From Petropleomorpha daqingensis (lineage in GTDB: Bacteria; Actinomycetota; Actinomycetes; Mycobacteriales; Geodermatophilaceae): a stretch of 64,000 nucleotides of DNA. This document shows, in pieces, positions 31,607-37,389 of this stretch. The notes under the pieces were generated by a model that ran no database searches, had not been told where the DNA came from, and saw nothing but the letters and a program-made list of their open reading frames with translations. The position numbers and the translations under genes are program-made. The first letter of the stretch is position 1, and each line of letters begins with the position of its first letter. The stretch is from the NCBI RefSeq assembly GCF_013408985.1, contig NZ_JACBZT010000001.1:2108001-2172000 (forward strand), in the 5' to 3' direction.

Positions 31607-31630
31607 CCGCCCGCGCCCGGCGTCCGGGGG

Positions 31631-31702
31631 GCCGAGTGAGCAGTTGCGGTCGCCGACACGCGCGGACACGCCGCGGCCGGCGACCACAACTGCTCAGTCG
31701 GC
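31631..31702. repeat. 25-bp inverted repeat with 22-base spacer
   Basis: Arms at 31631-31655 and 31678-31702 read GCCGAGTGAGCAGTTG... and its complement, with two mismatches in 25. The spacer is 22 bases. The stem is long and AT-interrupted, unlike the GC-only gene-end palindromes. It lies between two tiny genes, so a terminator or a small extragenic palindromic element are both possible. Confidence 0.75.
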
Positions 31703-31816
31703 CGAGCTCGCCGAGAGGTGGGGCCGTGCCGAGCGGGGTACCGGAACGGGCCCGCCGCCCAACTGACGAGCGATGTTCGACCGGCCGTCACCCGCCCGAC
31801 GCCCGGGCGGCGCACC

Positions 31817-31951: not shown

Positions 31952-32015
31952 GCGCTTCCTGGGAGAGGCGGTCGCCGGCGTGCCGGAATGGGTCCGCGGT
32001 GGCAGAGTCCGCAGC

Positions 32016-35000
32016 GTGAAGACGTGGCTCGACGCGTGGCCGGTGTACCGGCAGCTGACCGGCTCCGACCCGCTCGGCCGCGGCAAGGCGGCGCGCAGCA
32101 AGGCCACGGAGAACGTGGTCAGCCGTACGGCCACCGCCGACCGCGTCGTCCAGAGCGTCTGCCCCTACTGCGCCGTCGGCTGCGGGCAGCGGGTGTTCGT
32201 CAAGGACGAGAAGATCGTCCAGATCGAGGGCGACCCGGACTCGCCGATCAGCCGCGGCCGGCTGTGCCCAAAGGGCAGCGCGAGCAAGCAGCTGGTCACC
32301 AGCCCGACCCGGGAGACCAAGGTCCGCTACCGCCGTCCGTACGGGACGCAGTGGGAGGACCTCGACCTCGACACGGCGATGGAGATGATCGCCGACCGCG
32401 TGCTCGACGCCCGCCGCAAGGGCTGGCAGGACGAGGTCGACGGCAAGCGCGTCAACCGCACCATGGGGATAGCGAGCCTCGGAGGGGCGACCCTCGACAA
32501 CGAGGAGAACTACCTCATGAAGAAGCTCTACACGGCCATGGGCGCGATCCAGGTCGAGAACCAGGCCCGGATATAGCACTCCTCCACGGTGCCCGGTCTG
32601 GGTACCTCGTTCGGCCGTGGTGGCGCGACCAACTTCCTGCAGGACCTGGCGAACTCCGACTGCATCGTCATCGAGGGTTCGAACATGGCCGAGTGCCACC
32701 CGGTGGGCTTCCAGTGGGTCAGCGAGGCCAAGGCGCGCGGCGCGAAGGTCGTGCACATCGACCCGCGGTTCACCCGCACCAGCGCGATCGCCGACCTGCA
32801 CGTGCCGCTGCGCGCGGGCAGTGACATCGCGTTCCTGGGCGGCCTGATCAAGTACGTCCTCGACAACGACAAGTACTTTCCGGAGTACGTCGTCGCGTAC
32901 ACCAACGCCGCGGCGATCCTGCGCGAGGACTTCCGCGACACCGAGGACCTCGACGGCCTGTTCTCCGGCTACGACCCGGAGCACAAGCACTACGACGAGT
33001 CGACGTGGGAGTACGAGGGCGACGCGACGCCGGCCGCGGCCGGTCAGCGCGGCCCCGACGAGCCGGGCGGCAAGCCCGCCCGCGACGCCCGCGAGGGCAA
33101 GCAGGCCGGTGAGCACGGCCCGGACGTCCACGAGGCGGCGCAGCACGAGGCGGCCGGCAGCGGCGGCCCCACGGTCCGGGTCAAGCCGAAGCGCGACGAG
33201 ACGCTGCAGCACCCGCGCTGCGTCTTCCAGGTGCTCAAGCGGCACTACGCCCGCTACACCCCGGAGATGGTGGCGCAGATCTGCGGCATCGACCCGCAGG
33301 CGTTCCTGCAGGTCGCCGAGTGGATCACCGCCAACAGCGGCCGGGACAGGACAACGGCGTTCGTCTACTCGGTCGGCTGGACGCAGCACTCGGTCGGCGC
33401 GCAGTACATCCGGACGGCGTCGATCCTGCAGGCGCTGCTGGGCAACATGGGCCGCCCCGGCGGCGGGATCATGGCGCTGCGCGGGCACGCCAGCATCCAG
33501 GGCTCGACCGACATCCCGACGCTGTTCAACCTGCTGCCGGGCTACCTGGTCATGCCGCACGCCCAGCAGCACATGTCGCTCGAGGAGTACTGCGCGCAGA
33601 GCAAGAACACCGCGGGCTTCTGGGGCAACATGCCCAGCTACATGGTCAGCCTGCTCAAGGCCTACTTCGGCGACGCGGCGACGCCCGAGAACGACTTCTG
33701 CTTCGACCACCTGCCGCGGCTGACCGGCGACCACAGCTCCTACCAGTCGGTCGCGCAGATGATCGAGGGCAACGTGCCCGGCTACTTCCTGGTCGGCGAG
33801 AACCCGGTGATCGGGCACGCCAACGGCCGGATGCAGCGCTTCGGGCTGGCCAACCTCGAGTGGCTCGTCGTCCGTGACCTGCAGATGATCGAGTCGGCGA
33901 CCTTCTGGAAGGACGCCCCCGAGATCGAGACCGGCGAGCTGGTCACCGACCAGATCGCGACCGAGGTCTTCTTCCTGCCCGCGGCCTCGCACGTGGAGAA
34001 GGCCGGGACGTTCACCCAGACCCAGCGGCTGCTGCAGTGGCGGCACAAGGCGGTCGAGCCGCCGGGCGACGCCCGCAGCGACCTGTGGTTCTACTTCCAC
34101 CTGGGCCGGCTGCTCAAGCAGCGGCTGGCGAACTCCACCGACCCGCGCGACCGGCCGATCCTCGACCTCGCCTGGGACTACCCGACCGAGGGCGAGACCG
34201 CCGACCCCAGCCCCGAGGCGGTGCTGCGGGAGATCAACGGTGTCGGTCCCGACGGCAAGGCGCTGGGGGCCTACACCGAGCTCAAGGACGACGGCTCGAC
34301 CTCCTGCGGCTGCTGGATCTACTGCGGCGTCTACGCCGACGAGGTCAACCAGTCCGCGCGCCGCAAGCCCGGGCGTGACCAGAACGCGGTCGCCCCCGAG
34401 TGGGGCTGGGCGTGGCCGGCCAACCGGCGCATCCTGTACAACCGCGCCTCGGCCGATCCCGACGGCAAGCCGTGGAGCGACCGCAAGAAGTACGTGTACT
34501 GGGACGACGACGCCGGCACGTGGACCGGGGACGACGTCCCGGACTTCGAGCCGGAGAAGCGGCCGGACTACAGGCCGCCGGAGGGCGCGACCGCGCAGGC
34601 CGCGATCGCCGGCACCGACCCGTTCATCATGCAGAGCGACGGCAAGGCGTGGCTGTACGCACCGGCCGGGCTCGCCGACGGGCCGATGCCGACGCACTAC
34701 GAGCCGGCCGAGTCGCCGATGTCCAACCCGCTGTACGGGCAGCAGGCCAACCCGGGCCGGGAGGAGCTCCCGGCGGCGTACAACCGCGGCAACCCGGTGG
34801 CGAGCGAGGTCTTCCCGTACGTGTTCACCACCTACCGGCTGACCGAGCACCACACCGCCGGCGGGATGAGCCGCACGCTGCCCTACCTGGCCGAGCTGCA
34901 GCCGGAGTTCTTCGTCGAGGTCTCACCGGAGCTGGCCGCCGAGCGGGGACTGGAGAACGGCGGCTGGGCCACGGTGGTCACCTCGCGGTCGGCGGTGGAG

Positions 35001-35315
35001 GCGAAGGTGCTGGTCACCGAGCGGATCCGGCCGCTGCGGCTGGACGGCCGGGTGATCCACCAGATCGGCGTCCCCTACCACTGGGGCGGGACCGGCATCT
35101 CGACCGGCGACTCCGGCAACGACCTGACCGGCGTCGTCATGGACCCGAACGTGCACATCCAGGAGTCGAAGGCGGCGACCTGCGACATCCGGCCGGGCCG
35201 CCGACCGCGCGGGCCGGAGCTGGTCGGGTTCCTCGAGGAGTACCGGCGGCGGGCCGGCGTGCCGTCGGGCACGGTGCCCGTGGGCGGCCGCGCGCCGCTG
35301 GAGGAGGACTCGTGA
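32016..35315 (+). CDS. fdnG: Formate dehydrogenase catalytic subunit, selenoprotein (Sec187 encoded by in-frame TAG)
   Basis: This 1099-residue molybdopterin oxidoreductase oxidises formate to CO2. The N-terminal [4Fe-4S] motif is C49-x2-C52-x3-C56-x27-C84. Residue 187, the active-site Sec/Cys position in ENQARI-x-HSSTVPG, is a TAG codon (32574-32576). The same frame continues with GTSFGRGGATNFLQDLA and runs without a stop to 35315. A SECIS-like hairpin sits directly downstream. A low-complexity insertion occupies about residues 328-388. There is no Tat signal, so the enzyme probably stays in the cytoplasm. GTG at 32016 gives the usual MKTW-like start. Its TGA overlaps the next gene (GTGA). 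A sequencing error is unlikely because TAG differs from both TGA and Cys codons by two bases. Confidence 0.96.
32574..32606 (+). promoter_or_regulatory. UAG selenocysteine codon and SECIS-like hairpin
   Basis: After the TAG (32574-32576) come 18 bases, then the loop GGTCT (32595-32599). The flanking stem is GGTGCCC (32588-32594) with GGGTACC (32600-32606), seven pairs including one G-U. The E. coli fdhF SECIS, as I recall it, has the same GGUCU loop and the same 18-base gap after its UGA. The hairpin should recruit SelB and tRNA-Sec so that UAG is read as Sec. Confidence 0.85.
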
Positions 35316-36379
35316 CGATCAGCTCGGCCAGCCCGGCGTGGACCGGGCGGGATCCGGAGCACCGGCTCTACGGGCCGCTGCCCGACGTGCAGGGGGAGTC
35401 GGGGTACGACGGCGACCACCCGGCGCGGGTCGGCTTCTTCACCGACACCTCGGTGTGCATCGGCTGCAAGGCCTGCGAGGTGGCGTGCAAGGAGTGGAAC
35501 ACGCTGCCGATGGACGACTCGCACGGCCGGCGCGACGCGCTCGGCCTGTCGGGGATGTCCTACGACAACACCGGGCAGCTCGGCGCCAACTCCTGGCGGC
35601 ACGTCGCGTTCATCGAGCAGTCGCGCACGGTGGACCTGCCGATGCCCACGTTCGGTCGGCCGGGGGGCGATCGAACGGGGAGCGGCCCGTCGCCGGCGGC
35701 CGGCGCCGAGCAGGACGACGCCCTGGCCCGCGCGCAGGCGTCGGTGCTCAACGCCGAGGCGCTCAGCGAGTTCGACCCGCAGACGACGCAGAGCGGCACG
35801 GACAAGCAGATCCGGTGGCTGATGAGCTCCGACGTCTGCAAGCACTGCACGCACGCCGGCTGCCTCGACGTCTGCCCGACCGGTGCGCTGGTCCGCACCG
35901 AGTTCGGCACCGTCGTCGTCCAGGGCGACATCTGCAACGGGTGCGGCTACTGCGTGCCGGCCTGCCCGTACGGCGTCATCGAGACGCGCAAGGACGACGG
36001 CCGGGCCTTCAAGTGCACGATGTGCTACGACCGGCTGACCGACGGGCTGATGCCGGCCTGCGCGACCGCGTGCCCCACGCAGTCGATCCAGTTCGGCAAC
36101 CTCGACGAGCTGCAGGCCCGGGCCGACGCGCGGCTGGCGACGCTGCAGAGCCAGGGCGTGGAGTCGGCGCGGCTGTACGGGCGCGACGAGGACGACGGCG
36201 TCGGCGGCAACGGGGCGTTCTTCCTGCTGCTCGACGAGCCGGAGGTGTACGGCCTCCCGCCCGACCCGGTGGTGACCACCCGCGACCTGCCGGCGATGTG
36301 GCGGGCCGCGGCGAAGGGTGCGGCGATGGTCGTCGGTGTGGCGGTGACCGCCGTCCTGGCGTCGTGGAGGCGGAAGTGA
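35312..36379 (+). CDS. Formate dehydrogenase iron-sulfur subunit (four [4Fe-4S] clusters)
   Basis: This 355-residue electron-transfer subunit has four cysteine sets: SVCIGCKACEVACKEW (C49, C52, C55, C59), VCKHCTHAGCLDVCPTGAL, DICNGCGYCVPACPYGV and FKCTMCYDRL...PACATACPTQS. It relays electrons from the catalytic subunit to the membrane. A proline/glycine-rich insertion follows the first cluster. The C-terminus ends in one membrane helix (AAMVVGVAVTAVLASW), like FdnH-type subunits. GTG 35312 and stop 36379 both overlap neighbours as GTGA, so all three subunits are co-translated. Confidence 0.94.
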   Translation: MTISSASPAWTGRDPEHRLYGPLPDVQGESGYDGDHPARVGFFTDTSVCIGCKACEVACKEWNTLPMDDSHGRRDALGLSGMSYDNTGQLGANSWRHVAFIEQSRTVDLPMPTFGRPGGDRTGSGPSPAAGAEQDDALARAQASVLNAEALSEFDPQTTQSGTDKQIRWLMSSDVCKHCTHAGCLDVCPTGALVRTEFGTVVVQGDICNGCGYCVPACPYGVIETRKDDGRAFKCTMCYDRLTDGLMPACATACPTQSIQFGNLDELQARADARLATLQSQGVESARLYGRDEDDGVGGNGAFFLLLDEPEVYGLPPDPVVTTRDLPAMWRAAAKGAAMVVGVAVTAVLASWRRK

Positions 36380-37389
36380 CCGCGGCGGGCGGCTGGCGGC
36401 AGGCGGACCGCGGCCCGCGGCTGAAGCGGAAGAAGCGTGGCGGCGGGGGCGGCAGCCGCGAGCTGTCGATGGTGGACGACGTCGAGTTCACCTCGTACTA
36501 CGGCCGCCCGATCATCAAGCCGCCGGTGTGGAAGAGCCCGGAGGTGCCGCTCTACCTGTTCCTCGGCGGCGCGGCCGGGTCGTCGGCGATCCTGTCGGCG
36601 CTGGGGGAGTTCACGAAGCGGCCGACGCTGGCCAAGGCGGCGCAGATCCTCGCCGGGGGCGGCGCGCTGGGCTCGGTCGGGTTGCTCATCGTCGACCTGG
36701 GCCGGCCGGAGCGGTTCCTGCACATGCTGCGGGTGTTCAAGCCGACGTCGCCGCTGTCGGTCGGGTCGTACATCCTCTCGCCGTTCAGCGCCCTCACGGT
36801 CGGGGCGGCGGGGCTGCACGTGCTGGGCTGGTTCCCGCGACTGCGCAAGCTGGCCGCCGTCGGGGCCGGGGCGCTCGGGGGGCCGATGACGACGTACACG
36901 GCGGTGCTGATCGCGAACACCGCCGTCCCGTCGTGGCACGCGGCGGGGGAGCAGCTGCCGTTCGTCTTCGCCGGGTCGGGGATGGCCGCGGGCGGGGGCA
37001 TGACGATGGCGTTCTCACCGGTCGCCGAGGCCGGGCCGGCGCGCAAGATGGCGGTGGCCGGCGCGGCGATCGAGCTGGCCGCGATGCACCAGGTGGAGAA
37101 CGGCCACGGGATCGTCAGCGAGCCCTACCACGAGGGCCGGCCGGGGCTGCTGCTGAAGATCGCCAAGGCGTGCACCGTCTCCGGCGCGGCGCTCACCCTG
37201 CTGACCGGCCGCAAGCGGGTCGGGGCGGTGCTGGCCGGCGCGCTGCTGGCGGCGGGGTCGGCGCTCACCCGGTTCGGCGTCTTCGAGGCCGGCATGGTCA
37301 GCGCCAAGGACCCGAAGTACACCGTCGTCCCTCAGCGTGAGCGGCTGGCCGCGCGGCAGAACGGGCACGCGCCGACCGTCACCCGCTGA
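36376..37389 (+). CDS. nrfD: NrfD/PsrC-type membrane subunit of formate dehydrogenase
   Basis: This 337-residue polytopic membrane protein starts with a basic cytosolic leader (RLKRKKRGGGG) and an amphipathic stretch (TSYYGRPIIKPPVWK). About eight hydrophobic segments follow (PLYLFLGGAAGSSAILSAL; GGPMTTYTAVLIANTAVPSW). PsrC/NrfD subunits pass electrons from an Fe-S partner to menaquinone, so this replaces the cytochrome b subunit of FdnGHI. Quinone is plausible here because menB is in the window. GTG 36376 overlaps the beta stop by 4 bases. Confidence 0.9.
   Translation: MTAAGGWRQADRGPRLKRKKRGGGGGSRELSMVDDVEFTSYYGRPIIKPPVWKSPEVPLYLFLGGAAGSSAILSALGEFTKRPTLAKAAQILAGGGALGSVGLLIVDLGRPERFLHMLRVFKPTSPLSVGSYILSPFSALTVGAAGLHVLGWFPRLRKLAAVGAGALGGPMTTYTAVLIANTAVPSWHAAGEQLPFVFAGSGMAAGGGMTMAFSPVAEAGPARKMAVAGAAIELAAMHQVENGHGIVSEPYHEGRPGLLLKIAKACTVSGAALTLLTGRKRVGAVLAGALLAAGSALTRFGVFEAGMVSAKDPKYTVVPQRERLAARQNGHAPTVTR

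Follow-up and report, generated by a model that had tools for sequence, protein, structure and literature searches.

Retention of a SECIS-type hairpin behind the predicted UAG selenocysteine codon of fdhA in Petropleomorpha daqingensis and its relatives

UAG-coded selenocysteine (Sec) in the Geodermatophilaceae was reportedly described by Mukai et al. in 2016. Because UAG-Sec in this family has been in print since that year, the fdhA gene of Petropleomorpha daqingensis studied here is a further example of a known phenomenon. The published accounts considered here (PMC5330540, PMC5133445, PMC10778597) establish UAG-Sec in the Geodermatophilaceae, and P. daqingensis is no different in kind, having in common with them the family, the gene fdhA, tRNA-Sec(CUA), a UGSC protein as second selenoprotein and a SECIS after the UAG. 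The identical swap has been engineered in E. coli, where UAG/tRNA-Sec(CUA)/SECIS performs as well as UGA/UCA, with SECIS and SelB retained and a similar yield, in a system that differs from the present one in being engineered and in overexpressing the sel genes (PMC3834832). In bacterial SECIS elements, the upper stem-loop lies 11 nt past the codon, and its key bases are U17, G23 and U24 (PMC8659212). To the known code variant, the relatives of P. daqingensis add repeated codon conversion and a possible two-codon genome, both of which are worth following.

The window, the whole 64,000-nt stretch of P. daqingensis DNA that was analyzed (contig NZ_JACBZT010000001.1, positions 2,108,001 to 2,172,000), contains fdhA, encoding the alpha subunit of formate dehydrogenase, at positions 31980..35315 of the plus strand. 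Its product is 1111 aa long if an in-frame TAG is read through as Sec; the start is the first GTG given by the ORF tool, and the true start may lie further in. The TAG (32574-32576, plus strand; residue 199) is in frame with the open reading frames on either side, which encode 198 aa up to the TAG and 908 aa from the next GTG, and it occupies a Sec/Cys position in the motif ENQARI-U-HSSTVPGLG, where homologues align TGA or TGC/TGT. The NCBIfam model NF041513 (formate_DH_Act) matches the product with 1979.6 bits (cut-off 1400) over residues 16-1091, unbroken across the TAG, and Pfam finds molybdopterin domains in it. The closest FdhA, at 87% identity, comes from a Blastococcus MAG, and the P. 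daqingensis strain is apparently not among the strains sampled. Downstream on the same strand, a 355-aa fdhB-like iron-sulfur subunit named from its motif (35312..36379; VTISS...CIGCKACEVACKEWN) has a start that overlaps the end of fdhA, and a 306-aa protein (36469..37389) is, from its position and translation, a probable membrane subunit of the fdhA operon. We infer from the sequence that the fdhA TAG is a Sec codon, giving a full-length selenocysteine FdhA in P. daqingensis.

A stem-loop lies directly 3' of this codon within the open reading frame, as in bacterial SECIS elements of the fdh type. It occupies positions 32588..32606 of the plus strand, behind an 11-nt spacer (32577..32587), and is identified by its fold, covariation, loss in Cys homologues and a weak match to Rfam SECIS_3. 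The original prediction placed a GGUCU loop 18 bases past the codon on a 7-bp stem with one G-U pair, and the fold of 32570-32615 matches this exactly: positions 32588-32594 pair with 32600-32606 in seven base pairs, with a single G-U at 32591/32603, and the loop GGUCU (32595-32599) starts 18 nt after the TAG. The likeness to E. coli fdhF was likewise right, GGUCU there also starting 18 nt after the UGA; of 5426 E. coli genomes, 5368 contain the 44-nt stretch, annotated as fdhF. The two elements also share the 11-nt spacer and equivalent contact bases, E. coli U17, G23 and U24 corresponding to U14, G20 and U21 after the codon, so that the bases contacted by SelB are present: U14 lies in a Val GTN codon, and G20 and U21 occur in every loop (GGUCU, AGUCU or AGUUU) of 119 Sec rows. 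They differ in the codon, UGA in E. coli and UAG in P. daqingensis, and in the stem, where the bulged U (U17) of E. coli fdhF contrasts with a U paired as U-A or U-G (U-A here) in a continuous 7-bp helix.

In this gene of high G+C content, the coding sequence holds eight other hairpins with a 7-bp stem and a 5-nt loop (nine counting the SECIS hairpin), and the folding energy of the hairpin is unremarkable (z -0.2 to -1.5). Since the fold of the single sequence is not significant and similar hairpins are not rare in fdhA, the case rests on comparative tests, and the folding energy of one sequence was rejected as proof of a SECIS. Among synonymous versions of the site drawn with the gene's own codon usage, 6.9% have all seven pairs and 0.57% have all seven pairs together with GGUCU. 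The match to Rfam RF01989 (SECIS_3) at 32571-32629 is the best across the whole P. daqingensis genome; it was also rejected as proof, its 25.7 bits lying under the gathering score of 63. Two microRNA matches on the minus strand (31627-31704) were disregarded, being below threshold in a G+C-rich stretch.

For comparison, 80 relatives were drawn from the genome collection, and searching genomes of the class and of the family supplied another 60 regions; because some of these 60 regions repeat the same genes, tests were run on distinct 45-mers. The Sec-codon position holds TAG in 87 rows, TGA in 32 and a Cys codon in 22, corresponding to 46 UAG, 31 UGA and 22 Cys distinct 45-mers. The UAG rows are Geodermatophilaceae by title or group code except for 'Bacillus sp. 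AZ43' (UNVERIFIED_ORG) and a Frankiales-titled MAG, the sequences of which are both typical of Geodermatophilaceae, and TAG stands at the identical codon in all complete fdhA genes recovered from the family. On average, 6.94 of the seven pairs form in the distinct UAG 45-mers, 6.61 in the UGA and 4.36 in the Cys 45-mers. When the columns of the 3' side were shuffled, the observed pairing was reached in 0/2000 (UAG), 8/2000 (UGA) and 643/2000 (Cys) shuffles; because these shuffles leave relatedness in, we place weight on the base changes themselves. Pair nt 15/27, made of two third codon positions, occurs as G-U, G-C, C-G, U-A and U-G with zero mismatches in 77 Sec sequences, and one sequence has G-C in place of C-G at pair nt 18/24 through two synonymous substitutions (CCC...CTG to CCG...CTC), such that compensatory change preserves the pairing in Sec homologues as in bacterial SECIS elements. 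The central expectation, that the hairpin is conserved despite the UAG, is thus borne out by its retention, with compensatory changes at synonymous sites, in the distinct sequences of both groups, 46 UAG and 31 UGA.

The Cys homologues, which might have kept the hairpin sequence, lack the hairpin in 22 of 22 distinct sequences, none of which forms seven pairs. Their peptide is almost unchanged, HSSTV(A/V/S)GLG (HSSTVAGLGTSFGRG), yet the hairpin is absent when Cys replaces Sec; a codon that builds the stem encodes Pro in all Sec homologues and Ala, Val or Ser in the Cys homologues. The loss may represent a single event because the Cys genes form one clade of the tree. Compared with fdhA genes of UGA-using Actinomycetes (Amycolatopsis, Nocardioides, Pseudonocardia and others), the P. 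daqingensis hairpin is near-identical in sequence and fully alike in geometry; the differences are the codon and pair nt 15/27, which in UGA genes is U-A, U-G or C-G and never the G-U or G-C typical of UAG genes. The Val codon at nt 13-15, which contributes this mid-stem pair, is usually GTG in UAG fdhA but is GTG in 0/32 UGA rows, a difference that may stem from codon bias or from a preference of SelB.

The machinery encoded elsewhere in the genome agrees with this reading of the codon. The sole tRNA-Sec of P. daqingensis (G000:C1:3440656-3440747) has the anticodon CUA and scores 66.9 bits against Rfam tRNA-Sec, over the cut-off. It is followed closely by selA and selB, and selD precedes it closely on the opposite strand; this tRNA-Sec(CUA) with sel genes, together with UAG at the Sec codon of both fdhA and the UGSC gene, agrees with the UAG-Sec code of the Geodermatophilaceae. 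In three other Geodermatophilaceae genera, represented by fragmented genomes, tRNA-Sec has the anticodon UCA. The P. daqingensis tRNA-Sec(CUA) has 92 positions and differs from these UCA tRNAs at 9 to 14 of them (85-90% identity). Both anticodon bases are always among the differences, as is a pair of the anticodon stem altered on both sides: gene positions 33 and 41 are U-A in 8/8 UCA and C-G in 21/21 CUA tRNA-Sec genes read in the family. The proposal that only the codon and anticodon were swapped therefore stands in part: the swap is visible, the only tRNA-Sec of the genome being CUA, but the stem pair changed as well, from U-A to C-G. ARAGORN labels the tRNA-Sec(CUA) 'tRNA-Pyl' (L001:1501-1596), and automatic annotation of Geodermatophilaceae is likely to misname this tRNA and to split fdhA at the TAG.

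RF1 is present in P. daqingensis, and TAG terminates some eight plausible genes of the window, so UAG is still a stop elsewhere, and the release factor competing at the Sec codon should now be RF1. The C-terminal region of SelB is 52-61% identical to that of UGA users and the preceding linker 34-46%; among solved structures, the best match spans only residues 8-453, the C-terminal domain being distant from known ones. This conserved C-terminal domain and published work on E. coli suggest that SelB binds the fdhA hairpin.

A second predicted selenoprotein of the genome, of the UGSC family (L111/L235; G000:C1:2972211-2972639, minus strand), carries TAG at the Sec position and matches NF041046 with 143.9 bits when Cys is substituted for Sec. 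Its hairpin repeats the fdhA geometry (spacer 11 nt, stem 7 bp) with the loop AGUGU, and has C where E. coli has U17. Across the Geodermatophilaceae, UGSC genes carry TAG or a sense codon at this site and never TGA, and in all TAG copies that were read, spacer and stem again measure 11 nt and 7 bp and the loop is AGUGU or AGUCU.

Altogether, we assign a probability of about 95% to a model whereby the hairpin is a genuine bacterial SECIS, and SelB with Sec-tRNA-Sec(CUA) decodes the fdhA UAG using the same RNA address as in UGA-using actinobacteria, binding and RF1 competition being the inferred parts. In this model, a ribosome on fdhA mRNA would arrive at the UAG, SelB carrying Sec-tRNA-Sec(CUA) would use its C-terminal winged-helix domain to bind the hairpin that begins after 11 nt, and delivery of Sec in competition with RF1 would yield full-length selenocysteine formate dehydrogenase. 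Geodermatophilaceae would have exchanged the Sec codon, the anticodon of tRNA-Sec and one tRNA stem pair next to it, with the hairpin address unchanged.

The abundance of such shapes in the fdhA coding sequence, nine in all, and the low folding z-score would fit a decaying fdhA in which the TAG is an ordinary nonsense mutation or an error of sequencing, followed by a chance hairpin in a G+C-rich coding sequence. We regard this reading as refuted and scarcely credible, since TAG occupies the identical codon across dozens of genomes, in every complete fdhA of the family, the frame is open on both sides of it, and the pairing covaries at synonymous sites. Reading of the TAG by a pyrrolysine tRNA, to which the ARAGORN name points, is just as hard to credit given the fit of this tRNA to Rfam tRNA-Sec at 66.9 bits, its 85-90% identity to the UCA tRNA-Sec of the family, its position beside selA, selB and selD, and the Sec or Cys that homologues align at the codon.

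The nature of the constraint on the hairpin could also be questioned. Conserved residues partly set five of the seven pairs, and the hairpin could be kept merely through the peptide HSSTVPGLG and not as an RNA signal; this is most improbable in view of the Cys homologues, 22/22 of which have nearly the same peptide without the hairpin, of the synonymous compensatory pairs in the Sec group, and of the 0.57% of synonymous versions with both stem and loop. Alternatively, the element could be a true SECIS for which the RNA rule of SelB has been altered in the Geodermatophilaceae, the shared hairpin being partly a leftover. The GTG preference for the stem Val codon in the UAG group (0/32 UGA rows) and the C at the U17 position in UGSC speak for such a change, which we nevertheless consider very unlikely because the loop G and U (E. 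coli G23 and U24) are kept in all groups, pairing covaries inside the UAG group, and acquired fdhA genes were recoded with the hairpin retained.

This last point comes from trees of 97 and 45 FdhA proteins, in which UAG fdhA genes occupy four places. The main Geodermatophilaceae clade includes the P. daqingensis gene. The UAG fdhA of Modestobacter sp. DSM 44400 (L100) falls among UGA genes of Jatrophihabitans and Pseudonocardia; second UAG copies in genomes identified as Blastococcus tunisiensis and Geodermatophilus sp. TF02-6 (L199 and L201) lie beside the UGA genes L165, L166 and L169; and the UAG gene of a MAG (L206) adjoins the UGA gene L182. The log-likelihood drops by 537 units (p-AU = 0.00065) when the UAG genes, a group defined by codon and not picked from the tree, are constrained to be monophyletic. 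On this evidence, the FdhA tree holds at least four separate origins of UAG. Most simply, UGA fdhA genes were acquired and their Sec codon then passed from TGA to TAG by two substitutions, with the hairpin kept; the reverse course, an ancestral UAG with several reversions to UGA, is far less probable, since all neighboring groups use UGA.

A related case is Geodermatophilus sp. LHW52908 (G406), which has the usual tRNA-Sec(CUA), UAG in fdhA and UGSC, and a single SelB. On the minus strand of its contig C17, we found a second tRNA-Sec with anticodon UCA (L185:1173-1263; 81.8 bits), and about 300 bp away on the plus strand an AhpD-like gene with an in-frame TGA (L185:1579-2157). The TGA falls at the second Cys of the CxxC of a homologue (RCFY-stop versus KCYYC) and is followed by a hairpin with the loop AGUUU, the energy of which is reached by 1.4% of synonymous versions. 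Searches of the AhpD-like gene against viral contigs gave no match, and those against plasmids gave distant peroxidases alone (< 60% identity). The island is low in G+C (59-65%) and lies amid transposase genes. Contamination is an unlikely source of the second tRNA-Sec, as contig C17 is elsewhere collinear with sister Geodermatophilus genomes, although a chimaeric contig is conceivable. Possibly, LHW52908 reads both UAG and UGA as Sec with one SelB; if so, two selenocysteine codons would coexist naturally in one organism.

The P. daqingensis hairpin offers a clean natural case in which the choice of Sec codon is separable from the RNA address. We lean slightly towards the broader view that the hairpin acts as a codon-independent, transferable address, that incoming UGA genes were converted to UAG at least three times beyond the ancestral switch, and that LHW52908 regained a UGA system and uses both codons with one SelB. 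Repeated conversion of acquired genes from UGA to UAG would mean that genes cross the code barrier to lateral transfer one at a time, via TAA or TGG intermediates.

Finally, we note two irregularities among the relatives. One genome (G431, contigs C4 and C12) has two fdhA copies, each split into two pieces in different frames and one with two in-frame TGA codons, which are probably decaying genes or assembly errors. In another (L179, genome G370), the fdhA frame carries, besides the Sec TGA, a second in-frame stop, TAG, at codon 642 of the FdhA match and otherwise continues; this extra TAG is likely an error because the genome is 63% complete.
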